Source of the DNA: Bdellovibrionales bacterium RIFOXYA1_FULL_36_14
GTDB taxonomy: Bacteria; Bdellovibrionota; Bacteriovoracia; Bacteriovoracales; Bacteriovoracaceae
Assembly: GCA_001769975.1 (NCBI GenBank)
Contig: MEPW01000023.1
Span: 1-64,000, forward strand
Length of the DNA: 64,000 nt
Reading direction: 5' to 3'
This document shows positions 11,385-37,017 of the stretch, in pieces. Every line of letters starts with the position of its first letter. Positions within the stretch are counted from its first letter, which is position 1. A model generated the notes under the pieces. It was not told where the DNA came from. It worked only from the letters and a program-made list of their open reading frames with translations, and searched no databases. A program made the translations under genes and the position numbers.

Positions 11385-12386
11385 ATGAACGCGCCGATCC
11401 TGGTCTTTATTGAACATAATAATAAAAAAGTTGCTGACGTAAGTTTGGAATTGATCAGCGAAGCCACAAGACTTGCTAAAAAATTAAACTGCGAAATTCA
11501 TGGGGTCGTCTTATCCCACAATGCCGCAGAAGAACTTACCCAACTTGGACACTATGGATGCCAAAAACTTTACTACGTAAAAGACAAACGATTGAATCAT
11601 TTTTCTTCGGTCCCTTTTGCCAAATTAGTTACATCAATTATCAAAAAGCACCAACCGCAAATCGTGCTGTTTGGCGCAACTTCCACTGGTCGCGATATTG
11701 CCCCCAGAGTTGCCAGCGAACTATGCTGTGGACTCACTGCTGATTGCACCAAGCTGGAAATTGGTAGTCATAGTATTAAAGATCAAACTTTTGACAATAC
11801 TCTCCTACAAATTCGTCCTGCCTTTGGCGGAAACATTGTGGCAACGATTGTGTCACCAGAATCAAATCCCTCTATGGCGACGGTACGAGAAGGTGTCATG
11901 AAGCTTAATCATCCTGAGACTAATAAAAAAGTTGAAATTATATCTGAGCCGTGTGATCTCTCAGATAGTGATTTTTTAAGTGAGATTTTGGAAGTCATTC
12001 GCGAAGAAAAAACCGTAGATCTTAAACAAGCCAGAATAATTGTCGCCAGCGGAATGGGTGCTAGCACTCCAGAATGTATCTCCCTCATTAGACAACTGGC
12101 TAAAACATTAGGTGGCGAAGTCGGTGCAAGCAGACCAGTGGTAGATGCGGGACTGCTTGGCAAAGATCATCAAGTTGGTCAAACGGGAATCACCGTACGC
12201 CCCAACTTATATATCGCTTGCGGAATATCCGGCCAGATTCAACATATGGCCGGTATGAGTGAAGCCAAAAGAATAATTGCCATCAACAATGATCCTGATG
12301 CCCCGATATTTAAAATAGCTAATTATGGCATCGTGGGAGATGTTAAAGACGTAATACCAAAAATGATCAAGGCCTACCGAGGATAA
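11385..12386 (+). CDS. etfA: Electron transfer flavoprotein alpha subunit
   Basis: C-terminal FAD domain GGEVGASRPVVDAGLLGKDHQVGQTGITVRPNLYIACGISGQIQHMAGM; RBS aggag upstream. Confidence 0.95.
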   Translation: MNAPILVFIEHNNKKVADVSLELISEATRLAKKLNCEIHGVVLSHNAAEELTQLGHYGCQKLYYVKDKRLNHFSSVPFAKLVTSIIKKHQPQIVLFGATSTGRDIAPRVASELCCGLTADCTKLEIGSHSIKDQTFDNTLLQIRPAFGGNIVATIVSPESNPSMATVREGVMKLNHPETNKKVEIISEPCDLSDSDFLSEILEVIREEKTVDLKQARIIVASGMGASTPECISLIRQLAKTLGGEVGASRPVVDAGLLGKDHQVGQTGITVRPNLYIACGISGQIQHMAGMSEAKRIIAINNDPDAPIFKIANYGIVGDVKDVIPKMIKAYRG

Positions 12387-12390
12387 ATAC

Positions 12391-14106
12391 ATGTCAAACT
12401 TTTATAATGATAATCAAGATATTATATTTCATATGGAAAATATGGATCTTCGCAGGATTGTCGAACTCAAAGAAGACAACTTCACTGATTCAAAAACCTG
12501 TAGATATTCTCCACTGGATTATGAAGATACCAGGGATAATTATAAAAAGCTCTTAGAAATTATGGGTGATATTACTGGCAATTATATTGCGCCTAGGGCG
12601 ACTGAAGTTGATCAATTAGGCGCTACATATAAGGACGGTGAAGTCGCTTATGCCCAAGGTACTAAGGAAGCCATTGATATTTTAAAAAAAGCAGATCTTA
12701 TGGGAATGACTCTCCCTCGAAAATACGAAGGTCTTAATCTTCCTAAAACCATCTATTCTATGTGCATCGAAATGGTTTCCCGTGCAGATGCATCTTTAAT
12801 GAACCTAGTGGGTCTGCAAGATATCGCGGACACTATCTGTAAATTTGGTTCCGAAGATCAAAAAGCCAGATATCTTCCTCGTTTTGCCAGAGGAGAAGTT
12901 ATGGGGGCCATGGCCTTAACTGAACCAGATGCCGGTAGTGACCTGCAAGCCGTTATGTTAAAAGCTACACAAAATCCCGACGGAAACTGGTATTTAAACG
13001 GAGTAAAAAGATTTATCACTAACGGCTGCGCCGATGTTTCGCTAGTTCTTGCCCGAAGTGAAGATAAAACCACTGATGGTCGAGGGCTTTCTCTTTTTGT
13101 CTATGAACGAGATAAAAATATGACCATTAGAAGAATTGAACACAAGCTTGGTATTCATGGTTCGCCGACTTGTGAAATCCAATTTAACAATGCCAGATGT
13201 GAGCTACTGGGTACCAGAAGAATGGGGCTCATTAAATACACCATGAGTCTTATGAATGGTGCCAGACTTGGGATTGCGGCTCAATCCCTGGGTATTGCCG
13301 AAGCTGCCTATCGAGAAGCCTTAAAATATGCCAAAGAACGAAATCAATTCAAAAAGAAAATTTTAAACTTTACGGCAGTCTATGAGATGCTTACTGATAT
13401 GAAAATTGGTTTGGAAGCTTCTCGAACACTCCTTTATGAAACCAGTAAAATTGTCGATATCAAAGAAGGCCTGGAAGAGCGGATGGAAAAATATCCCGAG
13501 AGAAAATCCGATCTCCGTGATGAAATCAGCAAATACACCAAACTGGCAGGATTATTTACTCCCTTAGCAAAGGCCCATAACGCTGAAATAGGAAATAAAA
13601 TTTGCTACGATGCCATTCAAATTCATGGAGGAGTTGGTTATACCACTGAATTTAGCGTAGAGAGACACGCCAGAGATCAAAGGATCACCAACATTTATGA
13701 AGGTACTACCCAAATGCAAATCGTCGCAGCTATTGGTGGAATTACCAGCGGCTTAGTAAGTGAGAGACTAAACGAATACGAAAACGATAACGATTTTACT
13801 AAAATGCCAGATCTTTTTAAATCGCTTCAAGAACTAAGAACTAATTTAGAATTGGCCGTATCTCATATTAAAAAGAGAAATGATAATTTATCAATAGAAT
13901 TCCATGCCCGGAGACTCACTGAGATGGCCCTCTATACTGTTAACTCATATCTACTTTCCATTGCTGGACTAAAAAATGATCGAAAAAAACAAATTGCCAA
14001 AATTTATACCAGCAAAGCTTTACCAGACAGTAGAAGCAGACTTGAATTTATCTCCTCGAATGATTACTCCATTGTTGAACTACATGAAGGGATTATCAAC
14101 CATTAA
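12391..14106 (+). CDS. Acyl-CoA dehydrogenase (with C-terminal extension)
   Basis: MGAMALTEPDAGSDLQAVMLKA, YAKERNQFKK, DAIQIHGGVGYTTEFSVERHARDQRITNIYEGTTQMQIVAAI; 4-nt gap after etfA. Confidence 0.93.
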   Translation: MSNFYNDNQDIIFHMENMDLRRIVELKEDNFTDSKTCRYSPLDYEDTRDNYKKLLEIMGDITGNYIAPRATEVDQLGATYKDGEVAYAQGTKEAIDILKKADLMGMTLPRKYEGLNLPKTIYSMCIEMVSRADASLMNLVGLQDIADTICKFGSEDQKARYLPRFARGEVMGAMALTEPDAGSDLQAVMLKATQNPDGNWYLNGVKRFITNGCADVSLVLARSEDKTTDGRGLSLFVYERDKNMTIRRIEHKLGIHGSPTCEIQFNNARCELLGTRRMGLIKYTMSLMNGARLGIAAQSLGIAEAAYREALKYAKERNQFKKKILNFTAVYEMLTDMKIGLEASRTLLYETSKIVDIKEGLEERMEKYPERKSDLRDEISKYTKLAGLFTPLAKAHNAEIGNKICYDAIQIHGGVGYTTEFSVERHARDQRITNIYEGTTQMQIVAAIGGITSGLVSERLNEYENDNDFTKMPDLFKSLQELRTNLELAVSHIKKRNDNLSIEFHARRLTEMALYTVNSYLLSIAGLKNDRKKQIAKIYTSKALPDSRSRLEFISSNDYSIVELHEGIINH

Positions 14107-14752: not shown

Positions 14753-15949
14753 GTGACCGTTTCATTAGGAGACGGTATGGTTTTCACAACATTTACAAAA
14801 TTATTATTTATTGCTTCACTTTTAGTGGTTTTATCCGCTTGTCAACAAGAAGAATTTTTTGAGAAGACATATCTTGAGGGTACAGACGTTGTTGATACCA
14901 CTCCTGATATTGACCTTCCAATTATTGATGAGATTCCAGTAGTTGAACCAACCCCAGTAGTGGGACCAACTCCAGTAGTTGAGCCAACTCCAGTAGTTGA
15001 GCCAACTCCAGTAGTTGAACCAACTCCAGCAGTAGTTGAACTTGAACTCGTTTCAGAGCAATTTATTCAAAAAAATGTTGGCGCTAATTCAGGTAAAGTT
15101 GACATTCTATGGGTAATTGACAACTCAGGTTCAATGGGTGATGAACAACAAGCTATTGCCAAAAACTTCAAATTCTTTATTAATGCCTTCATCAATAAAG
15201 GAGCTGATTTTAAAATGGCAATTACTACTACAGACACTACTACCAAGTACAATGGTAACATTACCTGCGGTTATAATTACTCCTACAGATCAACCAATGT
15301 TTGCGGAACTCCTGGTAACATCAGTTCAGATGAACTTATCTATAAGTTATCTGCTGAAGCCGCCAGCTACGATCTGGTTGATTTTATCGACGACTTTATG
15401 AAATACATCTATGTAGGTGCAAATGGTTCAGGTACAGAAAGAGGACTCAAAGCTACTTCTTCTTTCTTAGCTAAATACAACCAAACTTTCCTACGTGATG
15501 AAGCTTTCTTTGCTGTTATCGTTGTTAGTGATGAGCAAGATCAATCATCAGATACCGTTGCTAATTATGTAAACTACATTAGATCACACAAAACTAACGA
15601 AGGTATGGCAAAAATCTATTCCATCGTTGCTAAAACTGCTAGTTCACAAAATACGATTGGAAGTAGATACGTAGAAGCTTCAAATTTAACAGGTGGAATT
15701 CACGATGATATTAAAAAAGATTTCTATGAAACACTTCTTAATATCGGTGGTTCTATTATTGAATTGTTAGATAGTTTTGCTTTGGCCCAAGGCCCATACG
15801 CTGGTACAGACGTAATAGTTAAAGTAAACGGAGTTGTTATGAATTCAGGCTGGATCTTTAATGCTGATAATAACTCAATTAAATTTAATGAAGACAGTAT
15901 CCCAGCAGAAGGAAGCATAATCACTATCGATTACTATGTACAAAAGTAA
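14753..15949 (+). CDS. VWA-domain lipoprotein with Pro-Thr repeat linker; possible CglB-like adhesin
   Basis: Predicted lipobox (VVLSAC), (PVVEPT)n linker, MIDAS motif DILWVIDNSGSMGDEQ. Confidence 0.85.
   Translation: MTVSLGDGMVFTTFTKLLFIASLLVVLSACQQEEFFEKTYLEGTDVVDTTPDIDLPIIDEIPVVEPTPVVGPTPVVEPTPVVEPTPVVEPTPAVVELELVSEQFIQKNVGANSGKVDILWVIDNSGSMGDEQQAIAKNFKFFINAFINKGADFKMAITTTDTTTKYNGNITCGYNYSYRSTNVCGTPGNISSDELIYKLSAEAASYDLVDFIDDFMKYIYVGANGSGTERGLKATSSFLAKYNQTFLRDEAFFAVIVVSDEQDQSSDTVANYVNYIRSHKTNEGMAKIYSIVAKTASSQNTIGSRYVEASNLTGGIHDDIKKDFYETLLNIGGSIIELLDSFALAQGPYAGTDVIVKVNGVVMNSGWIFNADNNSIKFNEDSIPAEGSIITIDYYVQK
14936..15025 (+). repeat. 18-bp tandem repeat, 5 units (ccagtagttgarccaact), encoding PVVEPT
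   Basis: Direct reading: five consecutive 18-nt units with 0-3 substitutions. Confidence 0.95.
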
Positions 15950-15962
15950 GGATTAAATAGCT

Positions 15963-15997
15963 GGTCGGGATAACGAGGAGTTATCCCGGCCTTTTTT
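15963..15997 (+). terminator. Rho-independent terminator after the VWA gene
   Basis: GGTCGGGATAAC-GAGGA-GTTATCCCGGCC followed by TTTTTT. Confidence 0.93.
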
Positions 15998-16218: not shown

Positions 16219-16944
16219 ATGAAAAATAATTTTATTCTAAGTGAGATCGGACGGTTTATTATCGTATTATTTTTAATTTTCATTTTCATCGTTCCAACAT
16301 ACCTGCGAGCAACGGAAAAAGACCTCTACGATTTTTTGTGGCTTGATCAGGATAAAAAAGTTTATGTTCTCCAAAACAAAAACTATAAAAAGAAAAATTC
16401 ATTTTATTTTGATGCAGGTTACACCAAGGTTATCAACCAAAAATTTATAAGTGGTAAAGCCTTGGCCTTAAGAACTGGTTTTTATTTTCATGAGGAGTGG
16501 GGTGTTGAACTGCTTTACAATACTTATTTCAATACCAACAATGATACTTTTGCGGCTGTCCAAAGAGTTAATGGTAGTGTGCCCTTCGTTAGAAAACTAA
16601 CTGGCAGTTACGCTGGTCTTTTGGTGTGGTCACCCTTTTATGGCAAAATAAATACGTTTAATAAAATCTATTATTTCGATTGGTCGTTTGGACTCGGTCT
16701 GGGTAATGCTGATTTTGAAAATAACTTAATTTCCGCAGGTGATGAGAATGTGCCAGACTCTTATGACAAAAAAAGTAGCATGGCAATCATGGCTAAAACC
16801 AATTTAAAATTCCATATTTCTAAACACATCCATTTAAATATTGAATACCTAAATACTTCATACAAAGACCGAAGCCCTTCCTCTCCCAAAGAAGAAAGAA
16901 GGTATAATTCAGACGTCACCGTTGGACTTGGGTTCTCATTCTAA
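16219..16944 (+). CDS. Outer-membrane beta-barrel protein (myxobacterial/Bdellovibrio OMP type)
   Basis: Signal-like N-terminus; alternating beta strands; FYFDAGYTKVINQKFISGKALALRTGFYFHEEWGVELLYN; C-terminal SDVTVGLGFSF barrel signature. Confidence 0.8.
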   Translation: MKNNFILSEIGRFIIVLFLIFIFIVPTYLRATEKDLYDFLWLDQDKKVYVLQNKNYKKKNSFYFDAGYTKVINQKFISGKALALRTGFYFHEEWGVELLYNTYFNTNNDTFAAVQRVNGSVPFVRKLTGSYAGLLVWSPFYGKINTFNKIYYFDWSFGLGLGNADFENNLISAGDENVPDSYDKKSSMAIMAKTNLKFHISKHIHLNIEYLNTSYKDRSPSSPKEERRYNSDVTVGLGFSF

Positions 16945-16958
16945 GGTAGAGGCAAAAC

Positions 16959-18479
16959 ATGAAAAAAATAATAATTAAATTACTACTCATTTTTATCATA
17001 TGCTTTGAAGCTTTTGGGTCCCTGGAAAAAGCCCGACAGCTTTATAACGATCCCAAGGTTGAGCGAAAAAATGAAAAGATCACTTATGAACTGATCATGG
17101 GGGATTATTATTTTTCCGCCATTCCATTTGCTATCAAACATATTGCAAGCACGCAAAAAATCAATCCGGAATTTGAAAAAGCATTAAAGGCTTTAGTCGT
17201 CAAAGCCGGCCCAGAAATCTTTTTTGATGTTTCCACGGAAGTACTTGTGAAACATGACTCGCCTACTCTATATTTTGTGCTAGGACTGAGATACTTCCAT
17301 GAAAAAAATTATGCCCTGGCCATTAAATATTTAGAAAAAGTTCCAGACAATAATTACCTACAACCAGAGGTAAGGCTCACCAAAGGTGCTGCCTATAGTT
17401 TGCTTGGTAATAGCGACGCTGGATATACCGAATATAAAAAATGCTACAATTACGCTGAGAGTGCGGTGAGCTCTAGTGCTAACGATAAAATAAAAAGATA
17501 CTACGCAATTCTAAAAGAAACCTGCTCAATTCATGTTGCCAGATTGAAATTTACCTCTCAAGAATATGACAAATCTATTGAAGCGTACGATGAAATTGAT
17601 AAGACTTCTTATAAATGGCCCTACGTGCTTTTGGAAAAGGCATGGGTAAAATTTAAACAAAAAGATTACAACCGAACACTCGGTTTGTTGGTTACTTACA
17701 AATATCCGCTACTCGAAAGTTATTTTATGCCAGAGAGCGAACTCCTCACGGCCTTATCTTATCATAAACTGTGCTTATGGGAGGATGCTTTAAGCGTTGT
17801 AGACCAATATTATAAAATTTATAAACCCAGATCAGAAGCGTTGGCTTCAGTGCTTATCAAAAACAAAACTTCTGACAATTATTTTTTCTACCTGACTCAC
17901 GAATCAACGCAAATGCTGGAAGCTAAGCACCCCTTTATTAAAAGTTTGATTACTCAGATTAAAAAAACAGTTAAATACAACGTAGAATATGGAGCTTATA
18001 AAATTGCCATGAAAGAAGCCACCTTGCTTAAAAAGATGAATCGGGATGATTTTATACGAGTCCTAATTGAAGAAACTGACACCCAGATTAACTCAAAAAT
18101 TAAATCCTTGAACTGGTACATTAAGGAATACATGTATGAGTTCATTAACAAAATAAACGGTCTGTCTTTCCAACTTTTTAAAATTAGAATCGATATTATG
18201 AGTAAAAAAAGAGATCTGATTTACAAAGGGACCCAGCTAATTTCCGATCGCGGACGAGGTGATTTAAAACATGTCAACAGAACAGTCGATGAACAATTTT
18301 GGGAATTCACTGGAGAATTTTGGGCCGATGAACTGGGGGATTATTCGTTTGGACTTAAATCCAACTGCGAAGAAGTAAAACAAAGAACGTTTGAGGACGT
18401 AAAACAGGAAATACTTGAGGAAGAAAAAAGTCAAAAGAAGAAAGATGATGACAGCTCCAAGGGGGTAAAAAATGACTAA
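16959..18479 (+). CDS. Secreted TPR-repeat protein, Glt-like cluster
   Basis: Signal peptide; helical repeats such as PTLYFVLGLRYFHEKNYALAIKYLEKVPDN. Confidence 0.75.
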   Translation: MKKIIIKLLLIFIICFEAFGSLEKARQLYNDPKVERKNEKITYELIMGDYYFSAIPFAIKHIASTQKINPEFEKALKALVVKAGPEIFFDVSTEVLVKHDSPTLYFVLGLRYFHEKNYALAIKYLEKVPDNNYLQPEVRLTKGAAYSLLGNSDAGYTEYKKCYNYAESAVSSSANDKIKRYYAILKETCSIHVARLKFTSQEYDKSIEAYDEIDKTSYKWPYVLLEKAWVKFKQKDYNRTLGLLVTYKYPLLESYFMPESELLTALSYHKLCLWEDALSVVDQYYKIYKPRSEALASVLIKNKTSDNYFFYLTHESTQMLEAKHPFIKSLITQIKKTVKYNVEYGAYKIAMKEATLLKKMNRDDFIRVLIEETDTQINSKIKSLNWYIKEYMYEFINKINGLSFQLFKIRIDIMSKKRDLIYKGTQLISDRGRGDLKHVNRTVDEQFWEFTGEFWADELGDYSFGLKSNCEEVKQRTFEDVKQEILEEEKSQKKKDDDSSKGVKND

Positions 18480-18738
18480 AACAATTGTAACGATATTTTT
18501 ATTCACTTTGTTTACCACTAGCTTTCACGCTTTCGCAGAAAATAAAAAAGAAAAAGTAATCGTTGAATACAAAAAGTATGAACGCTTTGACCTTGGAAAC
18601 TTAGAAATCCAAGGTTCCGTCATCGCCCCTGGAGATGTTTCCGTAAAAGAGCGGGAACGTAAAGTATTGGAAACTGATTTCTATGAAAAAAAGGATTATT
18701 TTCCAGATATCAGACGGGATGTATTAAATTTAAAGTAA
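18472..18738 (+). CDS. Small secreted protein (88 aa), Glt-like cluster
   Basis: ATG overlaps the stop region of the preceding gene; signal peptide MTKTIVTIFLFTLFTTSFHAFA. Confidence 0.7.
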   Translation: MTKTIVTIFLFTLFTTSFHAFAENKKEKVIVEYKKYERFDLGNLEIQGSVIAPGDVSVKERERKVLETDFYEKKDYFPDIRRDVLNLK

Positions 18739-18856
18739 TCTTTTGCTAATAATTTTAATAACTTGACTTTGAAATTGATGTGCCTTTTTCCTCAAGTTTA
18801 TTTCATTAAGTGTCGATATAAGAACGTGATAGGAACATTTTTGTAGAGGAAAATAT

Positions 18857-19600
18857 ATGGAACAAACAATGAGTCAAGTTGCGGCAACCACACCCATCAA
18901 CGAAGCAATCGCTAACACCTCCTTAATTGAAGATATTGCTATTTTCATGAATGATGGTGGCGTCTTCATGTGGATCATTTTGGCGATTTGGATTTTTGGA
19001 ATTCTAATCACTTTAGAACGCTTCAAATCCTACGCCGTGTTTGATACAAAGGGTGATAGCTTAATGAATATGATAAAGAAGCACGTACTTCTAAACAATG
19101 TTCAAGAAGCTATTAAAATTTGTAGCAGTTCTAAGGCCCTACTCCCCTACGTGCTTAAGTCAGGACTAAAAAGAGCCAACCAAAGCAAGGAACAAATACA
19201 AGACGCGATCGAATCCTCCATGCTGGAAGTTCAACCTAAAATTGAACGCTGGATGGGATACTTACAATTAGTTGCCAATATTTCAACCCTATTTGGATTG
19301 CTTGGCACAATTCAAGGTTTAATTGGATCCTTTAGTGCTGTGGCTACGGCTGACCCCGCTTCTAAAGCAAAGTTATTGGCCATAGGTATTTCAACCGCCA
19401 TGAATACCACCGCACTTGGACTTTTATCTGCCATTACTATTATGATTGCTTACCAGGTACTGCTGAGCAAACATGACAAAATTACCGGGGAGATTGAAGA
19501 ATATTCAGTAAAATTAATTGACCTGCTAGGAACTAAAAAAGGTGGAAGCTTTACAGTCTCGGGTAGCTCGGAAGCACCAGATATTACTAAAGCTGCTTAA
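18857..19600 (+). CDS. MotA/TolQ/ExbB-family proton channel (AglR-like)
   Basis: Typical TolQ core: LQLVANISTLFGLLGTIQGLIGSFSAVATADPASKAKLLAIGISTAMNTTALGLLSAITIMIAY. Confidence 0.9.
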   Translation: MEQTMSQVAATTPINEAIANTSLIEDIAIFMNDGGVFMWIILAIWIFGILITLERFKSYAVFDTKGDSLMNMIKKHVLLNNVQEAIKICSSSKALLPYVLKSGLKRANQSKEQIQDAIESSMLEVQPKIERWMGYLQLVANISTLFGLLGTIQGLIGSFSAVATADPASKAKLLAIGISTAMNTTALGLLSAITIMIAYQVLLSKHDKITGEIEEYSVKLIDLLGTKKGGSFTVSGSSEAPDITKAA

Positions 19601-19623
19601 ATTTGTATTGAGTGGATTAATAT

Positions 19624-20139
19624 ATGCAAAAATCGTTTAGTAAGTTAAACAGAAAAACCAAACCTAATTTGATTCCAATTATGGATGCGGTTTTTATTTT
19701 CATTTTTTTCCTGCTCATGTCTGCCCAGTTTATTGATATATACGAAATAAACTCCGATGCTCCTGCCGTAGTCACTATTGATAAAAAAATTGATAAAAAA
19801 GATCCTCTAAATTTAGTTTTAGAGATCACTAAGGATAGCATAATAATTAAAACAGGACTTAGTGAAAAAACTCACTTTGAACTTAATAAGAAAACCGACG
19901 GTAAATATGATTTAGAAAAGCTCAATAAAATGCTGGCGGAAATTAAGTTAAAAAACATTGATGAGGATGCAGTTATTTTGCGTCCGATCTCGACGGTATC
20001 CTATGCTGATATTGTCAAGATCATGGATACCACCAGAGAAACAAGTCATAACCAGATACTGACTGCACGTAATAAAAAAGGTGAACTTATAAAGACCACC
20101 AGCTTGTTTAATAAAATTATTTTTGAAACAATAATTTAG
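19624..20139 (+). CDS. ExbD/TolR-family protein 1
   Basis: Single TM with Asp (NLIPIMDAVFIFIFFLLM), periplasmic TolR-like domain (ILRPISTVSYADIVKIMDTTRE). Confidence 0.85.
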   Translation: MQKSFSKLNRKTKPNLIPIMDAVFIFIFFLLMSAQFIDIYEINSDAPAVVTIDKKIDKKDPLNLVLEITKDSIIIKTGLSEKTHFELNKKTDGKYDLEKLNKMLAEIKLKNIDEDAVILRPISTVSYADIVKIMDTTRETSHNQILTARNKKGELIKTTSLFNKIIFETII

Positions 20140-20145
20140 GATACT

Positions 20146-20646
20146 ATGAGAAAAAAACGTTTTAACCGATTAAAGAAAGGTAGTGGGGATAAGGCCCTGG
20201 AACTCGATATCACTTCGTTACTTGATATTCTAGTTATCCTGCTGGTTTTTTTATTAAAAAGTTATAATGCTTCAGATTTAAAATTGGATTTGCTCGGAAA
20301 AATTGAGTTGCCGGATTCAGTCTCTCGTACGCTGGGTAACGACTCAGTCATTTTACAAGTCAACCGCGATAAAAAGGTTTGGATCAACAACGTTTATGCT
20401 GGTGATATTCAAACAGGAGAAGAACGAGTTGATTTTATCTATGACAAGCTTGATGAAATAAAAAAAGAAAAAGATAAGACCGCCGATAGCATGAGGACAC
20501 TGGCCAGTGCTATGAAGGACCATAACAAACAAATCAATATTGTATTGGATAAAACCCTCTCGTATAAAACCCTTCGCCAGGTTATGCATACTGCGGCTTT
20601 AGCCGGCTATCCTGAGTTTAAGTTTATTGTCCAGGGTAATTACTGA
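20146..20646 (+). CDS. ExbD/TolR-family protein 2
   Basis: LELDITSLLDILVILLVFLL TM with Asp; NIVLDKTLSYKTLRQVMHTAALAGYPEFKFIV. Confidence 0.87.
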   Translation: MRKKRFNRLKKGSGDKALELDITSLLDILVILLVFLLKSYNASDLKLDLLGKIELPDSVSRTLGNDSVILQVNRDKKVWINNVYAGDIQTGEERVDFIYDKLDEIKKEKDKTADSMRTLASAMKDHNKQINIVLDKTLSYKTLRQVMHTAALAGYPEFKFIVQGNY

Positions 20647-23558
20647 TGAGAAAATTTATAAATTTAACCATATTCATTTGTTTCGTCTTAACTACACAAG
20701 GTTTCAGTAGCGATAAATGGCGAGAGTTAAGTAAATTGGTTGATAGTGAAATAAAAGCTATCACTCAAATCAAAGATAGAAAAGCCAAACTGGAATACCG
20801 CCTGTTTGAACTATACACTGAGAAAATGAAATTAATCAGGGAGGAAGAAAACAAATTATTTCTCCAGGCCACTCCCTCTGAAGTTGGCAAACTTGGCAAA
20901 GGCGCTTACTTTAAAAACACTAGAAACGCTTATACACTCACTAAAAACCATGGCCTATCTATTTTAAATAAATGGCCGGATAATCAGCATACCGCCGACA
21001 TTTACTATACCCTCGCACTTAATTCTAGGGACTACGGAAATGATCAATATACTGAACCTTTTTTTAAACATACCCTAAGGTATGCACCTAAAGATTCCAA
21101 GATTGCCCACAATGCCAAGATTTCTCTAGCAGAACACTATTACAACGAGAAAAGATGGAGTGATGCTTTCAACCTATATCAGGAAATTCTAGTAAAACCA
21201 CTAGATGAGTTTCATAGTAAGCATTTATATAACTCAGCTTGGTGTCTTTATCAAATGAGAGAATTTTCTGCTGCTATCAAAAACATGCACCGAGCATTTG
21301 CTTTTTCTAAAAATAAAAATTACATCAATATCAATGAACAAATTTTTGATTTTATGGGTTTGTTTCATGTGGACGGTAAGGATATCCCGGGCGGAGTTGA
21401 TTTTTATGTAAAAAACACCACTGATCCGGGAACTCACCTAATTAAAATGGCCAAAAGAACAGCTAAAAACGGTCAGTTTGAAGATACTAGATACATTCTA
21501 AGCAAAGCTTTGATTGAATGCCAAACCAGAAAACAGCGTGATATAGAAATTAATATTCGTTTGGAAGAATTGGATATTTATCGAAAATTCAAGAAAAATG
21601 ACCTCCATTTTCAAGTAGCTGATACTCTAGCTAAAATGCAAACCCAAAGCCCACTACCCACCGAACAACAAGCTTTAGCAGTAAAAGAAATTAAAGACTA
21701 TACTGGTTACTTGCAAGTTAGGCTTACTCGAAATGCCAAACATAAAATTCAACACTACAATAAAAACGATCTAGCAGAAATTATAAGCTACTTCGATATT
21801 TTAACCAGGCTAGATAAATCCAATATAGATCAATACCGTTTTTATCAAGGTGAAACCTTTTATGCCGTAAAAGAATACGCTCAAGCTGCCAATTATTATC
21901 AAATGGGTGTTGAATGGGGAAATAAAAATCTAACTCCAGAAAATAAAACTGCAGATAATGAAACCTTCCGAAGGAAGTTACTCGACTCACTTCTGGCCAC
22001 TTTAGCAGAGGGTGGTTTTTCTCCTGAAGCAAACTTTAAACACACTGAATTTGCCTATACAAACTACATAAAAAGCTGGCCGGTAGATCCTAAAAGTCAA
22101 AAAATCTATGAAAGGCTTTTTAACCTTTATTTCCAAAAGACCCTTTTGGATAAAGCGGTAGATGCTATTGCCATCTACAACAAAAGCTATCCCGTTGATA
22201 TCGAAAAACATCGCGCCATGCTGGGAGCTGTTATTGATCATTACGTAAAAACTAAAAACACTACCAACTTAGCTTTTTGGGTAAATGAAATAATTGGAGG
22301 TTTATATAGTTTTGAGCGAACCTATGTTGACAAGGCTACCATCATTTTAGGTCAGCTTTTGTTTGAAAAAATTCAAAGCGTAGAAAATAAAAACAAAGAT
22401 ACCGCTTTAGAAATGTATCAGCGCATTTATGACAACAAAATCTACCCAGCAAAAATCAAAGCAGAGGCAGCGCTTTGGATTTCCATTATCTATCTTGAAA
22501 AAAGCAATACTAAGGAGTCTTTAAATTGGGCGATGAAATCTTTTGATTACTTCCCGGATAAAGAGTTATTTGAAAATCGAAAAAAATATGTCACTTTGGC
22601 CAATCAATATTACTTAAATCAGGACTTCGATCGCTCCATTGAAATTTCAGCTAAATATCTGTCACGTTTTTGCAAAGATGAATATAGCGAAAAACAGGAA
22701 TTTTTAAAAAATATAATCCAGTTGCAAGTTGCAAGTGGTAAACCAGATCTGGCACTCACTGCACTCCAGGAATATAAGAAATGTTATGATGATAGGAACT
22801 TTGAAATTATCAGCAGACTTTCCATCTTAAATTATTATATTTTACATAACGACCTGGATAATTTTTTTAAATTCTATGCAAATTATAAAAAGGATCTGGC
22901 CCTTACCGAAACCTTTTTTTCTGCCATGCTTAATTACTATTGGCATTCACTGTATTTAAACCAACCAGCTATTAACGAAAAAATCAGTAAGATATTCAAA
23001 GCCGTGCTAGAAGTTTCATCTTCCGAGCCAGCTCCTAGCTCATACGTCATCTCCTCGATCCGAGGTATTTTTGCCTATAAAGAATTTATGGTATTTTCCA
23101 AAGATTTTTTCAATTTCAACGTTGAAGAAAAAGAGGAATTTGATGAAAAAATTTTTAACGAACAATTGCAAAAGAAAGTAATGTTGCTTAAATCGCTAGA
23201 AGATAAGGCCCAAGAGATTATCGCTTTAGGCCAATCTGATGTTATTTTGGGAGTCTATCAGATTTTAAATATTGCCGCAGAAGATTTCTCTAAAATGTTG
23301 CTGGCATATAATCCCAAAGGTATGCCGGAAGAATTCGTCATTAGTTTCAAACGGTCCATGAATCAACTGGTCATGAATTTACAAACCAAAATTAGCAACA
23401 ATACTAGAAGCATTGACCAACTTATTCATAAAAATCAACTGATTTCTTATTTTAATACGGAGGTAACCAGGGATTCTAAGTTACGAAAGACCACTGGCTT
23501 TCAATGGCCATTTGTCTGGAGATCATCCACGGTAGATTTCAAGGAGAATGATAAATGA
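20646..23558 (+). CDS. Large secreted TPR-repeat protein (GltI/AgmK-like by position and architecture)
   Basis: Signal peptide; many TPR-like helical repeats; start overlaps the preceding stop by 1 nt. Confidence 0.75.
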   Translation: MRKFINLTIFICFVLTTQGFSSDKWRELSKLVDSEIKAITQIKDRKAKLEYRLFELYTEKMKLIREEENKLFLQATPSEVGKLGKGAYFKNTRNAYTLTKNHGLSILNKWPDNQHTADIYYTLALNSRDYGNDQYTEPFFKHTLRYAPKDSKIAHNAKISLAEHYYNEKRWSDAFNLYQEILVKPLDEFHSKHLYNSAWCLYQMREFSAAIKNMHRAFAFSKNKNYININEQIFDFMGLFHVDGKDIPGGVDFYVKNTTDPGTHLIKMAKRTAKNGQFEDTRYILSKALIECQTRKQRDIEINIRLEELDIYRKFKKNDLHFQVADTLAKMQTQSPLPTEQQALAVKEIKDYTGYLQVRLTRNAKHKIQHYNKNDLAEIISYFDILTRLDKSNIDQYRFYQGETFYAVKEYAQAANYYQMGVEWGNKNLTPENKTADNETFRRKLLDSLLATLAEGGFSPEANFKHTEFAYTNYIKSWPVDPKSQKIYERLFNLYFQKTLLDKAVDAIAIYNKSYPVDIEKHRAMLGAVIDHYVKTKNTTNLAFWVNEIIGGLYSFERTYVDKATIILGQLLFEKIQSVENKNKDTALEMYQRIYDNKIYPAKIKAEAALWISIIYLEKSNTKESLNWAMKSFDYFPDKELFENRKKYVTLANQYYLNQDFDRSIEISAKYLSRFCKDEYSEKQEFLKNIIQLQVASGKPDLALTALQEYKKCYDDRNFEIISRLSILNYYILHNDLDNFFKFYANYKKDLALTETFFSAMLNYYWHSLYLNQPAINEKISKIFKAVLEVSSSEPAPSSYVISSIRGIFAYKEFMVFSKDFFNFNVEEKEEFDEKIFNEQLQKKVMLLKSLEDKAQEIIALGQSDVILGVYQILNIAAEDFSKMLLAYNPKGMPEEFVISFKRSMNQLVMNLQTKISNNTRSIDQLIHKNQLISYFNTEVTRDSKLRKTTGFQWPFVWRSSTVDFKENDK

Positions 23559-24421
23559 TCAAGTTGCATAATTTTACAATCATTCTTGCTATCTTCTTTT
23601 ATGGTTGTGCCTCCACAGTACCACGACCTAAAATTGATTCCTTAGACAACGACTTATTTAGAAATGAATCACTCACTCAATATTCGATCGTTAACTTAGA
23701 GCTTGTGAAAAACAAGAAAAACAATGCCGCAATTGCTCTTTGTCACAATAAAAAAATCAGCGAAGGACTCGACCTATTGAAGACTTCTTTTGCTCAACAA
23801 AAAAACCACCCACTCTATTGGCTGCATGTGGGAACTTGTTACTATCTAAACGACAATTTTGACAAGGCAAAATTTTTCTATAACATATCACTGGATACTG
23901 CTTCCAAAGATGAACTGCAAAAGGCATTCGCCTATAACAATTTAGGTATACTCTATCTTAAAAATAACCATATTCTAGAAGCCCGGGATTATTTTGAAAA
24001 ATCACACAAAAGTAACCCCGATCTAATCACACCTAGATACAATCTTGGACAGATCTATATCAGATATGGATTGTTAACTGAAGCACTAAAGCTACTTGCT
24101 CCGCTTGAAACGCAAAATCCGAAAAGCATAGAACTGCTTTCATCTTTGGGTGTAATCCATACGTTGGATAATAATTCAAAGCAAGCTTTAAATTACTTTA
24201 AAAGAATCCCCGAGCCACTAAGACAACGTGAAGACATTGCTTGTGCCTATGCGCTAGCGCTTTATAACTTAAAAGATTACGCCAGTGCTAAAACAGTGTT
24301 GAGTGATCGAAAATCGCTTGGTTTAAAAGAAATGAATCAGATGGCATCCATGCTTATGGATGAAATAGATAATGAACTTAAGAATATTGAAAATTTAAAT
24401 AATAAAGTTAAGAAAAAATAG
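23555..24421 (+). CDS. TPR lipoprotein (GltE/AglT-like)
   Basis: Lipobox FFYGCAS; TPR units AFAYNNLGILYLKNNHILEARDYFEKSHKSNPDL; 4-nt overlap with upstream gene. Confidence 0.8.
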   Translation: MIKLHNFTIILAIFFYGCASTVPRPKIDSLDNDLFRNESLTQYSIVNLELVKNKKNNAAIALCHNKKISEGLDLLKTSFAQQKNHPLYWLHVGTCYYLNDNFDKAKFFYNISLDTASKDELQKAFAYNNLGILYLKNNHILEARDYFEKSHKSNPDLITPRYNLGQIYIRYGLLTEALKLLAPLETQNPKSIELLSSLGVIHTLDNNSKQALNYFKRIPEPLRQREDIACAYALALYNLKDYASAKTVLSDRKSLGLKEMNQMASMLMDEIDNELKNIENLNNKVKKK

Positions 24422-24429
24422 GAATACAT

Positions 24430-26301
24430 GTGGGTTTATTAAAAAATAAACAAAATCTTAATGCTTTAAAATTGGTCTTATACCAAGAAGGTACAGATCA
24501 GATAACTTTCAATTTAAGTAAAGATAAACTTTTAGTCGGCAGTTATGAAAATTGTGACATTGTATTGAAAGATTCACATGTATCTCATTATCACGCCATA
24601 ATTTTTATGAACGAAGATGGTGGAAAATTTCTGGATTTAGAAAGCGTCAATGGGGTCATTTTAAATGGAACCCGGATAAAAGAAAGTTATTTCGGTGTAG
24701 GCGACGTCATTAAAATTGGAAATTTAGAACTGCATGTTGAAGAATATCTGGCGAGCGAATCTTTACACAATTTAGACCAAAATATCTCAAGGTATAAAAC
24801 GACAATTGACACTTATATTCCCACCCAAAAATCAAGTGCTGATCTGGTCCTGGTGGACGGAGAATTTTGCGACATAGTCTTCACCGAACCGATGCATCCT
24901 CCATTAACGGACATTCCCTTAAAACCTAACAGCCTAGATTTCACCAGTTATATAGATACTGATGAGAATAAAATTCTCTATCCACTATTTAAAAAAGCTG
25001 ACCAGCTGGCCATCCAGGTCACGATTATGTCCAACCGACAAATTTTAAATATTGAGTATCTACAATTAAAAGATGGTACCTATTTCATTTCCAACAAAAA
25101 ATCCAATCGTCGCACCATCAAAATTGAAACTTTAAATTCAACCACCAAATTACCTTTTATAGATATCAAAGGTACTGATATTGAAATTCATCCCGTTAAA
25201 GATTTTTCAATGACCAACTTTAGACAAAACATTGAATTATCTACCAAAGAACCTTTTAAACTCACCCAAAATGATATCTTGAGTTTTTATTCAAACACTG
25301 TACAAATCATTGTTCAGCTAGTGGAAGCTCCACCGGAAATTAAGAAAGTGCCCTTCTTTGATTATGACAAACATATGGGCAAGCAATCCGGCATTGTATT
25401 TGGTATCTATATTGCTCTATGGTTGATCTTAACTTTCATTATAAATATCAATGAACTTAAAAAAGAACCAGTGAAAAATATTGCGGTAGTTTATCGACCG
25501 GCCGTGCGCAGTGAAGTCACTTCTGAACAAAAATCAAGCGGAGAATCAACTGTTAAACCAGAAGACAAAGGTGTAGAAAAGAATTTACGCCCAGATGATC
25601 CAATTAAACAAGCTAAGCAGGGACCAAAGACTCCGACAGAGCAACAACAGTCTAAAGCTAAACAGGAGACGTCTGCTAAGACAGAAACTAAAAATATCAA
25701 ACAGATTAAGACTTATAACTTCGCCATGGCAAACAACCTTTCATCCATGTTAAGTTCCAATACCAATGTGGAAAATGTAAAAGTTAATCAAAACAATAAG
25801 GCCATAGCTTCAGAAGGTTTTTCTAATTCAGTCAGCGACTCTTCAGACCTAAAAAGCAGAAAGATCGGAGACGCGGGAAATCTGGGTAGCGGTTTAAAAG
25901 GAAAATTTAGTACCTCCTCTGGAGCACAAGGGTTGGGTTCTAAACAGGGTATTGATACGACATATGTAGATCCTAAGACGGTTGTGCTAGGCTCCATGGA
26001 TCCCGAGCTGATCAGAAAAATCTTACAAGAATATCTCCCTCAATTTCAGCACTGCTACCAACAAGAACTTATGAGAAATGATGCGGTAAAAGGCGTAGTT
26101 CGACTTGATTTTAGAATTAATAAGGATGGTGCGGTATCGAATGTTTCCATGAGTGCTAAGAATGCCCAATTCTCAAGCCGCGGTGTAGGCTGCATTACCC
26201 AGGTAATGAATATGATCAACTTTCCTCAACCCAAAGGTGGAGGTGTAGTAGACGTTACCCAACCTCTCAACTTCTTTAGTGAGAAAATTTCAGGTAGGTA
26301 A
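24430..26301 (+). CDS. FHA-domain / TM / AgmX-PglI C-terminal domain protein (GltG-like)
   Basis: GTG start. FHA: LLVGSYENCDIVLKDSHVSHYHAIIFMNEDGGKFLDLESVNGVILNG. TM near residues 325-340. TonB-like tail VKGVVRLDFRINKDGAVSNVSMSAKNAQFSSRGVGCITQVMNMINFPQPKGGGVVDVTQPLNFF. Confidence 0.88.
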   Translation: MGLLKNKQNLNALKLVLYQEGTDQITFNLSKDKLLVGSYENCDIVLKDSHVSHYHAIIFMNEDGGKFLDLESVNGVILNGTRIKESYFGVGDVIKIGNLELHVEEYLASESLHNLDQNISRYKTTIDTYIPTQKSSADLVLVDGEFCDIVFTEPMHPPLTDIPLKPNSLDFTSYIDTDENKILYPLFKKADQLAIQVTIMSNRQILNIEYLQLKDGTYFISNKKSNRRTIKIETLNSTTKLPFIDIKGTDIEIHPVKDFSMTNFRQNIELSTKEPFKLTQNDILSFYSNTVQIIVQLVEAPPEIKKVPFFDYDKHMGKQSGIVFGIYIALWLILTFIININELKKEPVKNIAVVYRPAVRSEVTSEQKSSGESTVKPEDKGVEKNLRPDDPIKQAKQGPKTPTEQQQSKAKQETSAKTETKNIKQIKTYNFAMANNLSSMLSSNTNVENVKVNQNNKAIASEGFSNSVSDSSDLKSRKIGDAGNLGSGLKGKFSTSSGAQGLGSKQGIDTTYVDPKTVVLGSMDPELIRKILQEYLPQFQHCYQQELMRNDAVKGVVRLDFRINKDGAVSNVSMSAKNAQFSSRGVGCITQVMNMINFPQPKGGGVVDVTQPLNFFSEKISGR

Positions 26302-26553: not shown

Positions 26554-28833
26554 ATGACCGCCAGGACTTACAAAATGTCTTTTATTTCAAAATTACAACT
26601 TATGAACAAACCCCAAAAACATCAACCGAGTGACTCAAAAATCTTTTTTTATGGACGCATTAGTTCTGCTATCTTAGTTTCATCTGGAGCCCTAGCAATT
26701 CAAAAAATACTACAAACCAAAGTGGGTGGTACGATCCCTTTATTTCTACTTTCATATCCAGCTGTGTTTGGTATAACCGGACTATGCGGTATGATACCTG
26801 GCTTGATTGCCACGACTATAACCGGATTAGGCGTGCTGTATTTTTTTATTCCTTCACTTGACAACAATGTCATTTATAATTTGGCTGATTTACTTTCGCT
26901 TGGAATTTTTTTAGTAGTAGGTGTGGCTTCTAGTATGCTCATCCCTAGTATTCAAATAAAACAAACTCAGGCCAAGTTAGCGGCTGCTTCGGAATCACTA
27001 AAACTTTACGAGCTCATGGCCATGCACTGTCGTGATATAATTCTTTTTATAAGACAAGTTGATGGGAAAATTCTAGAATGTAATAAAGCTGCTACCCTAA
27101 CCTATGGTTTTAGTCATGAGGAGTTCAAGTCTTTAACCATTTCGAACTTGTTGGCGGACCAAGCGCCTTCTCATACTCATGACTTAAAAAGCGATACAAA
27201 CCCTAATGGCATGTTGTGGGAATCAATACATCGACGCAAAGATGGTAGCACCTTCCCCGTAGAAATTAGCTCCCAGGCTGGAGTTACCATGGGAGAAACC
27301 CGCGCATTAATTAGTGTTATTCGCGATATCTCTAAACGTAAAAAAGCTGAAGAGACTTTGCTTACTACTGGAGAACATTTACGAATCTCTCTGGCATCCA
27401 ATCATATGGCCACCTTTGATTGGGACATTATTCAAAACAAACACACCTGGGATAACATCGTACACGAATTGTTTGGAACCAACCCTGAAACTTTCAGAGG
27501 TACTACCGAAGAGTTTTACCAGATTGTTCATCCAGATGATTTAAATTGCGTAAAGGAAGCACAAAACTTGGCGATCAAAACTGGCCATAGCAAAGTTGAT
27601 TTCCGGGTTATCTGGCCAGACGGAAGTCATCATCATATCTCGTCTTGCAAAAAAGTTTATCGAAACGAAGCTGGAGTTGCCCATAGAATGATTGGCATTT
27701 GCTGGGATGTCACGGAACAAAAAGTTAATGAGAAGGCCCTGCGTTTGGCCACCGAAAGCTGGCTACGCACCTTTGATGCTATTCCCGACCTCATCGCTAT
27801 ACTTGATTCTCAACATCGAATTACTCTGGTAAACAAGGCCATGGCCTTGCGACTCAAAAAGCAACCACATGACTGCACGGGATTGTTTTGTTACAACGTG
27901 GTTCACGGACTTGATGCTCCACCAATGTTTTGCCCTCACTCGAAAACGATCTGTGACGGGCATGCGCACATGGAAGAGGTGCACGAAATTCACATAGGCG
28001 GAGACTTTCTCGTCAGTACCACTCCTATTGCAGGAGATGATGGCAAAATTCTAGGCTCAGTACATGTCGCCAGAGATATCACCGACCGCAAAAAAATGGA
28101 AACAGAACTTCGCTGTGCCATCGAATCTCAAGAGGAATTTCTAGCGATTGCCTCTCATGACCTAAAGGCTCCTCTTACCGATTTATACTTGACTCTAAAT
28201 TTTATGGAAGAAATAGTTAAGCAATCCCCCATGGACCAACCACAACTTTTCGATATGATCTCTCATGCGCTTAAGTCAGGGCAGCAGTTAGTTGTCCTAC
28301 TGGATGAGCTGCTGGATATTACCAGAATTCGCGCAGGAAAACTGGTGCTAGAAAAAGAAGACATGGATCTCAAATCCGCCGTCTTAGAATGGGTATCAAT
28401 TGTATCCACTGAAGCTCGCCAAAAAGGAAGTCAGATAACCGTCAAAGCCAGTGATTCTGTGGTAGGAGAATGGGACCCGGTACGCATCAATCAAGTGATA
28501 TCTAACTTGCTTTCCAATGCGATTAAATACGGCGAAGGAAAACCTATAGAAGTCACAGTGCTAGCCGATTTGCAAACTAAATGCGCTAAACTGATTGTAC
28601 GCGATCAAGGAATCGGTGTTCCTTTAGAAATGCAGTCCAAGATTTTTAAACGCTTCGAACGCGCAGTATCTGATCGTATGATTCACGGTCTTGGACTGGG
28701 CCTTTATATTGTAGGCCAGATTGTCCACGCCCATGGCGGCTCTATCAGCCTTAAAAGCGAGCCTGGCAAGGGATCTCAGTTTACAGTTTTGCTCCCCTTG
28801 AGCGATATAGAGTGCACACTGGTAGATGTATAA
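26554..28833 (+). CDS. PAS-domain sensor histidine kinase with KdpD-like (DUF4118-type) TM region
   Basis: N-terminal 4-TM region, several PAS domains, HisKA (EEFLAIASHDLKAPLTDL), HATPase (NQVISNLLSNAIKYGEG, VRDQGIGVP, GLGLGLYIVGQIVHAHGGSISLKSEPGKGSQFTVLLPL). Start could be 26575. Confidence 0.9.
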   Translation: MTARTYKMSFISKLQLMNKPQKHQPSDSKIFFYGRISSAILVSSGALAIQKILQTKVGGTIPLFLLSYPAVFGITGLCGMIPGLIATTITGLGVLYFFIPSLDNNVIYNLADLLSLGIFLVVGVASSMLIPSIQIKQTQAKLAAASESLKLYELMAMHCRDIILFIRQVDGKILECNKAATLTYGFSHEEFKSLTISNLLADQAPSHTHDLKSDTNPNGMLWESIHRRKDGSTFPVEISSQAGVTMGETRALISVIRDISKRKKAEETLLTTGEHLRISLASNHMATFDWDIIQNKHTWDNIVHELFGTNPETFRGTTEEFYQIVHPDDLNCVKEAQNLAIKTGHSKVDFRVIWPDGSHHHISSCKKVYRNEAGVAHRMIGICWDVTEQKVNEKALRLATESWLRTFDAIPDLIAILDSQHRITLVNKAMALRLKKQPHDCTGLFCYNVVHGLDAPPMFCPHSKTICDGHAHMEEVHEIHIGGDFLVSTTPIAGDDGKILGSVHVARDITDRKKMETELRCAIESQEEFLAIASHDLKAPLTDLYLTLNFMEEIVKQSPMDQPQLFDMISHALKSGQQLVVLLDELLDITRIRAGKLVLEKEDMDLKSAVLEWVSIVSTEARQKGSQITVKASDSVVGEWDPVRINQVISNLLSNAIKYGEGKPIEVTVLADLQTKCAKLIVRDQGIGVPLEMQSKIFKRFERAVSDRMIHGLGLGLYIVGQIVHAHGGSISLKSEPGKGSQFTVLLPLSDIECTLVDV

Positions 28834-29001
28834 ACTTTTGACACTTTTTAGACTCACTACACTCCATAAACTTTTTTGACAAAGAAAAGCCCTTAAATTC
28901 CATAGATTGTGAACACAAATAAGCATAATTCGTGGCACTTATCTTGCACTCTTATCTATAAATATAGTTATTTGAGTTTTTTATATTTTAAAGACAAAAG
29001 G

Positions 29002-32000
29002 ATGCATATGCAAAACCAAAAACACCTTATTACTCTCAGCTTTTCCTTGGTAATCGTAGTGATAGTGTTAGCTTCATGTAGCCTTAAAAGACCTGAAAGT
29101 GCAGCACCACTTGAAACCGGTATTAGCAAAGATTTTTTTACGACTAAAGTAATTAATCCAATGACTAAAAAAGAAGTATTACAGGGAAAAAAGTTTATGT
29201 GTGGTTGGGCACCAGTGGCGGAAGTTGGAGCATATGCCAAACATTATAATGATCATAATGTTATTGAAAATTGGCATTGCAATGTTGTTTTCACTTTTAA
29301 TCATGATCATTCACGTCTAATCGGAAAACTAGTTAACCCCAGTTATCCAGATGATATAAGCAAATGGACTACGGCTTTAGAAATTCCCATTACCAGAAAT
29401 TATACTCGGGAATATAAAAAAGATGAGTATCAACGAGTAACCAATGAAATCGTCGAAGATGAAACTAAGAATCATCCATCCGCCAGACCATTAATGGATC
29501 TGGATTTTTCCAATATGATGGTATCTGAAATTGGTTTTCGTAATATAACAACTGAGAGTGATTTAATAAGACCCGGGTCTTCTACTCAAAACATTGAAGA
29601 TATTGAAATTGATAACGCTACCGGTTTTATCGGTTTTACCTTAACTTTCAATGACCCTGATGTTTCCAGCGGTAATTCATTCGAAAGAAAAATCCGTTAC
29701 AACTTCCTGGAAATGAAAACTAACGAAAAATTCGAGTCCACCCCATGGCACGAAAAAAATGCTTCTCATTTAAATGCTCTTCATATTCTTGGCAAGAAAG
29801 TAGAAGGAGCTTCTTCTGCTTTCTTTGCTGCACATTGGGATAAATATAAAAGCCGTAAAGTTTATCTCATTGGTTTCCCAGAGAAATATTTTAAAATCGC
29901 AAAAGAAGCGTTGGGAAATTATAACAAACTATTTAAAGACCAAGTTGCTGATAAAGATCACCCCATTACTCATGACTTATTTATCCCGGAGCGAGGAGAT
30001 CATTTAAAATACTCCTTCGACCTACGTTATACCAGCATCACTTGGATTGATGATTTTGAAAAATCCCTAAACGCACCGCTTGGAATAGGTACGGCTTTAG
30101 CGGATAGATTAACCGGTGAAATTCAGTGGGGGGGCGTAACACTTTGGGGAGGCATGATTGAATATATAATAAAATCAGCAGCACCAAGCTTGGATCTTAA
30201 TTCTTCTCTTCCAGCTTCTCATGGTTTAAACTGGCTTGATAAAATAGAAGACAATGCTTTTGCATTTAATTATCAATTTGATTTCCCCGTCTCTCTAGAT
30301 CCTAATTTTAAAGGCCCATTTTTCAACACGTTTGTCAGCAACTCTTTAAATAAGATATTATTTGATGATTCCAAGCTCATGCTTGGCCAAAAAGATTTTG
30401 TTAAAACAAAACTAAATGATGAGTATCTAGAAAATTTTATTACAAACCAGGCCAGTTGGTTAAATAACCATCATAATGCGCAAAAGAGAAATTATCAGGA
30501 TTTTAGTTTTAATCATTATTTTAAAAATCTAGTCGGCAATAAACAATATAGCCAAAGTCAGGTTATGCATGACTTTAATAATAAGGATGCACTTCACTAC
30601 CATATGAATCAGGCAAAACAACATCTCAACTCCCCTATTTGTGTTATTTCTACGGAAGACGTCATTGCTGATATCCTAGAAGCCAAAGAGCGTGGCAATT
30701 TTGATCCAGAAAAAGTTATGGAAGCCTTTGTGAAAGATGTTATCCTTCATGAATTTGGACATATGATCGGACTCGGCCATAATATGGCAGAGAATATTCT
30801 TCCTACGGTTTCTGCAGTTATGGATTTGAATATTCATCCACCAAAAGTTGATATGAACGATAGCGAATACCAAGATCTTGATAATCTAAAAAAGATCATG
30901 CAATCAGAAAAAACCAAGTATACCGTACCTAAGAAATACTGGTTGCCACTTGAAATAGCCGCTATAAAAAACATGACTAATGCGTCCACAGTGATGGGTT
31001 ACAAGAACTCAAGAACGGACGTTCTATATGACAATCATGAACAAATTTTGCCAGGTCCTAGTGACGTTCAAGTCCTTAAATATCTTTACAATCAACAATA
31101 TGCCACGTTTAAATACGGCGAAGAAGATTTTACCTATTACAAAGTTCCTGCCACCGGACAAATTCCACTTTTTGCTCCTCGTAACGTAAAAGATCGATCA
31201 AGTAGATTTGTTTCATACTTTCCATCATGCACCGATTTTGAAGCAACCTTTGACACTAGTCCTTTATGTAAAAGATGGGATCGGGGTTATGATGTAAAAA
31301 CCCTGGCAGAAGATTACATGCTCTCCATTGATAATTTAAGAGATTCCAAACTTATTGCCAAATCAGAATTAAAAGGTGCTCGCAGTATTTATCGATTAGA
31401 AAACTATCTCTACGGTCACAATTTGGAGATGATGGGACGCCTTCGACTTTTTTATGATTATATGAGAGATCTCTTTAAAGATGAAATTGATTCCATCTCC
31501 CATGACGTTGAAGCAATCAAAATGTTTTCCACAGATTGTATGAGAGAAAAGATGGAAAACGCTTCTTTAATAAATCTATTCACCAATAATCCTAAATTAA
31601 AAGAACTCTGCCAAGTCAATAAAAAGATCGTTGAAAAGCTTGGTAGTTATATGGCCAAAAGCGGTAGAGATTTTACTAAAATTGATTATAAAAATAAAAC
31701 CGCACCTGGGGGAATGAGTTTTGGTGATGCTGACCCAAACTGGACTCAAATGAGTGGAACTTACCAAATATTATCCGATTTACCCTTTAAAATAGTGGCC
31801 CTCAACACCTTAACCTTAAGTCAACCTTATGCTTACCTTTATGGATGGATGCTTGAGATGGACAACTACTCCCATGAAAATGGCGGTTACCTTTATAGCT
31901 CACTTTATCCCAATGAATATTCACACGCGATCAAAAATGCCGTCCAAAACAATCTGCAGTTTGGTACCAATGGCGAAAAAACTATTCTGAAAAAAACTGC

Positions 32001-32778: not shown

Positions 32779-32781
32779 ACC

Positions 32782-36174: not shown

Positions 36175-37004
36175 TGAAATATGTTTTATCGATCACATTT
36201 ATTTTTTCACTCTTAAGCTTACATACTGTAATCCTGGCTAGCGAAGAGACTAAAACATGGGGAGCAACTGCCGGTTACATGATCACTAGCGATTATGCGG
36301 ATGAACGCTCCCCTAGACTCTACGAAAACAAAGTTTTATTAAACCTTTCAGGAAACTTTCTTCCTTATCAAATAACTACCACCCTGAAAAATTCTATTAA
36401 CTTCAACACTCTGGGTAACTCAGTTTATGAAGAAAATCCTGACTCTCATGGAATTCATTTTGCTGATACGATTTTAGTTTTTAACAAGACGTTAGCCTTA
36501 TCCCAGACCAATTCACAATTTCCTGGAATTCATCAACTAACACCCATAGTTTTTAATATATTTCCAACCAGCGACAGCTCAAGATATGCAGGATATCGAT
36601 CATCTCCTGGAGCACAGGCTGTGTTATCTTCTACCTTCTTTGATGGACATTATAATCTGAAAAATGGGATAAATTTTATTAAAGTCATTAACACTTACAC
36701 CCACAATCCAGCTAACCACACACCATCTCCATCCTTGATAAGCGTTTTTGAACAAGATCATACTTTTGCTTTAGGCCTGGGATTTTCCGTAGGTGCTGGC
36801 TTTAGTTTTAAATATTCAAAGGATGTGGATGGTAATAGCAATACCACTTTTGAAAATAGCGCTTCGCTTGAATTCGCCTATAAACAAATGAGTGCATCAC
36901 TAGTTTACTCAGGTGGCGATCATACTACAATTGACAAAGTGGAGCTCTGGTACGTTGATAATACTAGAGAATTATTAACCTTGGTTTTGACTTATACCAT
37001 TTAA
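36174..37004 (+). CDS. Secreted protein, candidate outer-membrane beta-barrel
   Basis: Signal peptide MKYVLSITFIFSLLSLHTVILA; amphipathic beta-strands at C-terminus (ASLEFAYKQMSASLVYSGG...LLTLVLTYTI); TAATG overlap with the upstream gene. Confidence 0.7.
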   Translation: MKYVLSITFIFSLLSLHTVILASEETKTWGATAGYMITSDYADERSPRLYENKVLLNLSGNFLPYQITTTLKNSINFNTLGNSVYEENPDSHGIHFADTILVFNKTLALSQTNSQFPGIHQLTPIVFNIFPTSDSSRYAGYRSSPGAQAVLSSTFFDGHYNLKNGINFIKVINTYTHNPANHTPSPSLISVFEQDHTFALGLGFSVGAGFSFKYSKDVDGNSNTTFENSASLEFAYKQMSASLVYSGGDHTTIDKVELWYVDNTRELLTLVLTYTI

Positions 37005-37017
37005 GGAAGAAGTACTT

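Follow-up and report, generated by a model that had tools for sequence, protein, structure and literature searches.

The closest described relatives of the locus studied here are the A-motility machinery of Myxococcus xanthus, built from AglRQS and GltA-K, and the clusters of Bdellovibrio bacteriovorus HD100 that are called agl or gliding operons in the literature (PMC2797640; PMC3169522). GltJ is required in M. xanthus; B. bacteriovorus lacks GltH, I, J and K although it is a bona fide glider, and GltJ is no defining feature outside the Myxococcales (PMC3169522). The four tonB/agl operons of B. bacteriovorus differ in their regulation (PMC2797640), and Bd0828-0838 is regarded as the best gliding candidate of that species (PMC3169522). 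Proteins of Bd0411-0421 are highest at the early bdelloplast stage and those of Bd2368-2377 at exit (PMC12546842), Bd1480 (aglQ) is surface-induced (PMC9140294), and a mutant in Bd0838 (aglS) is attachment-defective (PMC6561027). CglB of M. xanthus is a VWA surface adhesin (PMC13104615).

In this study, we analysed a window of 64,000 nucleotides, the start of a contig from Bdellovibrionales bacterium RIFOXYA1_FULL_36_14, and found that nine genes at 16219-26301, all on the plus strand in the ORF listing, form a nearly complete Agl/Glt gene set and thereby encode a known kind of machine, the gliding-type motor powered by protons with which predatory bacteria exert pull on surfaces. ORFs and domain tests agree with the initial annotation on these nine genes and their parts; it had missed a tenth conserved neighbour (14753-15949) and a second Agl/Glt cluster in the same genome. 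Intergenic gaps within the block are at most 118 bases and several genes overlap. For comparison we used a genome that we take to be B. bacteriovorus HD100, in which the four clusters and Bd1483 lie where the locus tags of the literature would put them. All nine genes have counterparts in its Agl/Glt clusters.

The block opens with an eight-stranded, GltA-like outer-membrane barrel (16219-16944, 241 aa), its only barrel, which scores above the cut-off of TIGR04565 (5e-26). Its AlphaFold2 model (pLDDT 85) has eight strands, the best Foldseek relatives are of OmpW, OprG and OmpA type, and by sequence match it is nearer to the HD100 barrel adjoining GltC than to the other HD100 barrel. It is followed by a GltC-like secreted TPR protein (16959-18479, 506 aa; NF033756, 8e-24 over 357 residues), which carries a C-terminal GE(F/Y)W.DE.G.Y motif common across the phylum, and by a small secreted protein (18472-18738, 88 aa). 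The latter is assigned weakly as GltF-like, from gene order and a 31% match to the protein beside GltE and GltG in the cluster on contig C51, and its size resembles that of M. xanthus GltF, which has 89 aa (PMC3169522). Beyond the channel genes lie a GltD-like secreted TPR protein (20646-23558, 970 aa), matching GltD of HD100 Bd0828-0838 with an E-value of 4e-46, and a GltE-like TPR lipoprotein (23555-24421, 288 aa), which matches TPR families, retains its lipobox cysteine in 24 of 24 sequences and finds its counterpart in the same HD100 cluster (1e-22). The TPR content proposed earlier is strong in this lipoprotein; in the 506-aa and 970-aa proteins the Pfam signal is weak. The last gene (24430-26301, 623 aa) encodes a GltG-like energy transducer with an FHA domain (PF00498/PF16697, above cut-off), a transmembrane segment and an AgmX/PglI TonB-like tail (NF033768, 68.9 bits against a cut-off of 40; NF033760, 2e-34, under its cut-off). 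Thus three proteins, the barrel and those resembling GltC and GltG, have significant matches among NCBI's Myxococcus models, and the Glt relationship whose absence was to count against the family reading is detected for all three, with GltC and GltG scores that lie far below the equivalog cut-offs. Kinship with M. xanthus was judged through these models and HD100 rather than by direct sequence alignment, and GltA, GltD, GltE and GltF were assigned from matches to HD100 clusters together with gene order.

The channel is encoded in the middle of the block by an AglR-like TolQ/ExbB subunit (18857-19600, 247 aa; PF01618, 1.4e-25; also placed by the AglRQS tree) and two TolR/ExbD subunits (PF02472, 3e-12 and 6.5e-15), AglQ-like (19624-20139, 171 aa) and AglS-like (20146-20646, 166 aa). 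Their transmembrane aspartates, D21 of AglQ and D27 of AglS, are kept in 26 of 27 and 27 of 27 homologues, respectively, a conservation that fits proton drive. Separately, Bd1480 of HD100 (11843-12400 in locus L125), the AglQ of Bd1473-1483, has alanine at this position.

No GltB or GltH-K was seen in the block. The earlier remark that GltJ is missing holds when the search is extended to the genome, which is 86% complete and yielded only tail or GYF fragments, a candidate on contig C33 being a GYF-like fragment only. Cytoplasmic regulators, likewise reported as missing, do occur in the organism on another contig, where recR, an MglB-like gene and mglA lie together. The same arrangement has been reported for Bacteriovorax marinus (PMC3983030), and its presence here makes polarity control available. 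The idea that this version is minimal or repurposed finds no support, because GltH, I, J and K are missing from the gliding B. bacteriovorus as well and the set nearly equals the expanded Bdellovibrio set. Immediately 3′ of the block lies a PAS histidine kinase gene (26554-28833). Further on, four genes in a row occupy 28909-40239, the first encoding a lipoprotein that contains HEFGHMIGLGH and weakly matches a Met-zincin family and the other three giving no family matches in the profile search, and a 991-aa protein (55505-58480) matches the T9SS sortase PorU model at 1e-23, below its cut-off.

The tenth gene (14753-15949, plus strand, likely start ATG 14777) encodes an integrin-beta-like MIDAS/VWA lipoprotein, a putative surface adhesin. 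With its lipobox, DxSxS motif and VWA fold it belongs to the broad class of VWA/MIDAS lipoproteins, and the lipobox cysteine and DxSGSM are invariant in 12 relatives. The MIDAS adhesin model NF052240 (4e-17) and the CglD model NF033765 (4e-12) both match under cut-off, and the protein falls outside the Bd0875 equivalog (62 against 700 bits). Its AlphaFold2 model (pLDDT 80, residues 29-78 disordered) retrieves integrin-beta headpieces and the pilus protein PitA in Foldseek (best E 4e-10), with TM-scores of about 0.4, which support a VWA domain framed by beta-rich structure but do not amount to close homology. Between this gene and the block stands a predicted strong intrinsic terminator (15963-15991, plus strand), a pattern match with a 12-pair stem, seven G-C pairs and a T-rich tail, so that in this genome the MIDAS gene may form its own transcript.

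The family of the sampled relatives is probably Bacteriovoracaceae; in one of its genomes an mglA-like match at about 57 kb stands at the place expected for BMS_0054 (PMC3983030). Among these relatives, 18 of 20 loci have the order MIDAS-barrel-GltC-small protein-AglR-AglQ-AglS-GltD-GltE-GltG, all genes sharing a strand (type A; exceptions L080 and L086), and the arrangement of the block is therefore not a product of chance. The MIDAS gene often adjoins or overlaps the barrel gene in these loci, touching it in L087 and L088. Upstream of GltD, within 9 kb and on its strand, 33 genomes carry a MIDAS gene; 15 other MIDAS matches are placed otherwise, some on short contigs and others as true strays. 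Of 59 family genomes, 56 contain relatives of GltD, which fall mostly into two classes, corresponding to both cluster types. Type B, to which the second cluster of this genome (L038) belongs, has the order barrel-GltC-GltD-GltE-small protein-GltG, with AglRQS convergent where visible, and all 15 loci read, some of which end at contig edges, are without a MIDAS gene. In quick trees supported by SH-aLRT only, types A and B are sister clades for AglRQS and GltG, and the GltD tree places the A clade beside unresolved B rows. The AglRQS tree puts A and B nearest to the Bd1473 type (SH-aLRT 99), whereas the GltD and GltG trees leave them apart, a disagreement that leaves one-to-one orthology with any one of the HD100 clusters unsupported. 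The same genome holds two additional sets. Contig C16 (L042) carries GltG-like, barrel, GltC-like and 1082-aa TPR genes, with no AglRQS in view; on contig C40 (8060-12386 of L039), AglR, GltG-like and two TolR-like genes beside one for an OmpL47-type beta protein constitute a further motor variant.

Judging from the genes present, their homologies, the gene order conserved together with the adhesin gene, and the channel aspartates, we consider it likely that the locus encodes a trans-envelope motor, driven by protons, which moves or loads the MIDAS adhesin on a surface or on prey. What is carried over by analogy from the M. xanthus and B. bacteriovorus literature is proton drive, the contact between AglR and GltG, and gliding. 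In such a machine, proton flow through the inner-membrane channel of AglR, AglQ and AglS would cause a conformational change or rotation that works on GltG, and GltG would pass force through the periplasmic TPR proteins GltD, GltE and GltC, together with GltF, to the GltA-like barrel. The barrel complex would display or move the MIDAS lipoprotein encoded just upstream, and binding of the latter to a surface, matrix or prey ligand would turn proton energy into traction. We infer the moving or loading step, and with it the role of the MIDAS protein as this motor's load. The three Glt-model matches, the presence of all nine families in HD100 clusters, the ten-gene order, the proximity of MIDAS to GltD, the MIDAS-free type B loci read, the MIDAS genes inside three of four HD100 clusters, the similar defects after insertions in Bd1481 and Bd1483 (PMC2277423), the surface induction of Bd1480 (PMC9140294), the attachment defect of the Bd0838 mutant (PMC6561027) and the MglA/MglB-type genes speak for this reading; the low GltC and GltG scores, the fact that neither GltB nor GltH-K was seen in the block, the predicted terminator before the motor genes, the conflict between AglRQS and GltD/GltG trees and the deletion result described next speak against it.

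The MIDAS gene could instead be a mere conserved neighbour of a genuine motor, with a separate role in adhesion. This would agree with the terminator and with normal predation on E. coli after bd1483 deletion (PMC11003981), but we find it rather unlikely, as the position is kept across 33 genomes and three of the four HD100 clusters (Bd0412-0420, Bd1473-1483 and Bd2368-2377) contain a MIDAS gene, at differing positions. Moreover, transposon insertions in Bd1481 (aglR) and in the MIDAS gene Bd1483 cause similar biofilm-predation defects (PMC2277423), and the Bd1483 phenotype could reflect polarity on Bd1481. Less probable still is an Agl/Glt-related machine that spends its energy on secreting, assembling or transporting surface material rather than on movement, with the MIDAS protein as substrate or receptor. 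There is precedent for it in the Nfs version, which serves the M. xanthus spore coat. Agl motors also power Nfs-dependent polymer movement (PMC3858216), and the core complex is found in non-gliding bacteria (PMC3169522); yet in HD100 the clusters have been linked to surfaces, to attachment and to entering or leaving prey (PMC9140294; PMC6561027; PMC12546842), and the conserved presence of an integrin-like lipoprotein gene next to the motor genes is likewise at odds with it. That a Tol-Pal or TonB-ExbBD system was misread as Agl/Glt, as the homology of the three subunits to TolQ/TolR might suggest, is very hard to credit, given that the profile placement named in advance as a refutation of the Agl/Glt reading did not occur, the subunits falling outside the TolQ, TolR, ExbB and ExbD equivalogs (tolQ 63.7 bits against 221, tolR 20 against 127, exbB 46 against 206), that the block has no Pal, TolB or TonB-receptor gene, and that it matches the GltC, GltG-tail and OMP_myx_plus models.

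While the kind of machine is known, the conserved pairing of motor and adhesin genes is new here. In the literature searched we found no earlier description of a motor cluster paired with an integrin-like lipoprotein gene, and the terms CglB, Glt and "adventurous" were not found in the text of PMC11003981. That the motor is, in this family, consistently encoded beside its own integrin-like adhesin gene suggests what it grips. The adhesin gene supplies a concrete, testable candidate, and it links two literatures, on MIDAS adhesins (PMC11003981) and on agl clusters. More tentatively, and with somewhat less than even confidence, we propose that most Agl/Glt paralogues of Bdellovibrionota couple a motor to a dedicated adhesin, an integrin-like MIDAS foot of its own, and have become specialised for particular stages or surfaces, that the adhesin-free cluster is a general glider, and that the window cluster is its family's version of such a pair.

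Compared with known systems, the locus shares with M. xanthus a homologous channel, GltC, GltG, TPR proteins and a barrel; it differs in that M. xanthus distributes its motor and Glt genes over three loci (PMC3169522), and in that the block showed neither GltB nor GltH-K. Bd0875 (PMC11003981), whose family model the window MIDAS protein matches weakly, resembles that protein in its lipobox and in a MIDAS domain set into a small beta-rich domain, but possesses a cap region, and about 40 kb separate its gene from the nearest agl cluster. The gliding-like cluster Bd0828-0838 has the same core of barrel, GltC, GltD, GltE, GltF, GltG and AglRQS, but with two barrels, the motor genes last and no MIDAS gene in the cluster as read. 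Bd1473-1483 differs in its post-motor gene order, in the PilZ gene Bd1482 between adhesin and AglR (PMC3271064), in that no separate GltE was found there and in an AglQ without the transmembrane aspartate, and the GltD and GltG trees give no special kinship. Its AglRQS, however, group with those of the window cluster, and there too a MIDAS lipoprotein gene, Bd1483, lies upstream of AglR-AglQ-AglS, followed by GltD, a small protein, GltG, barrel and GltC.
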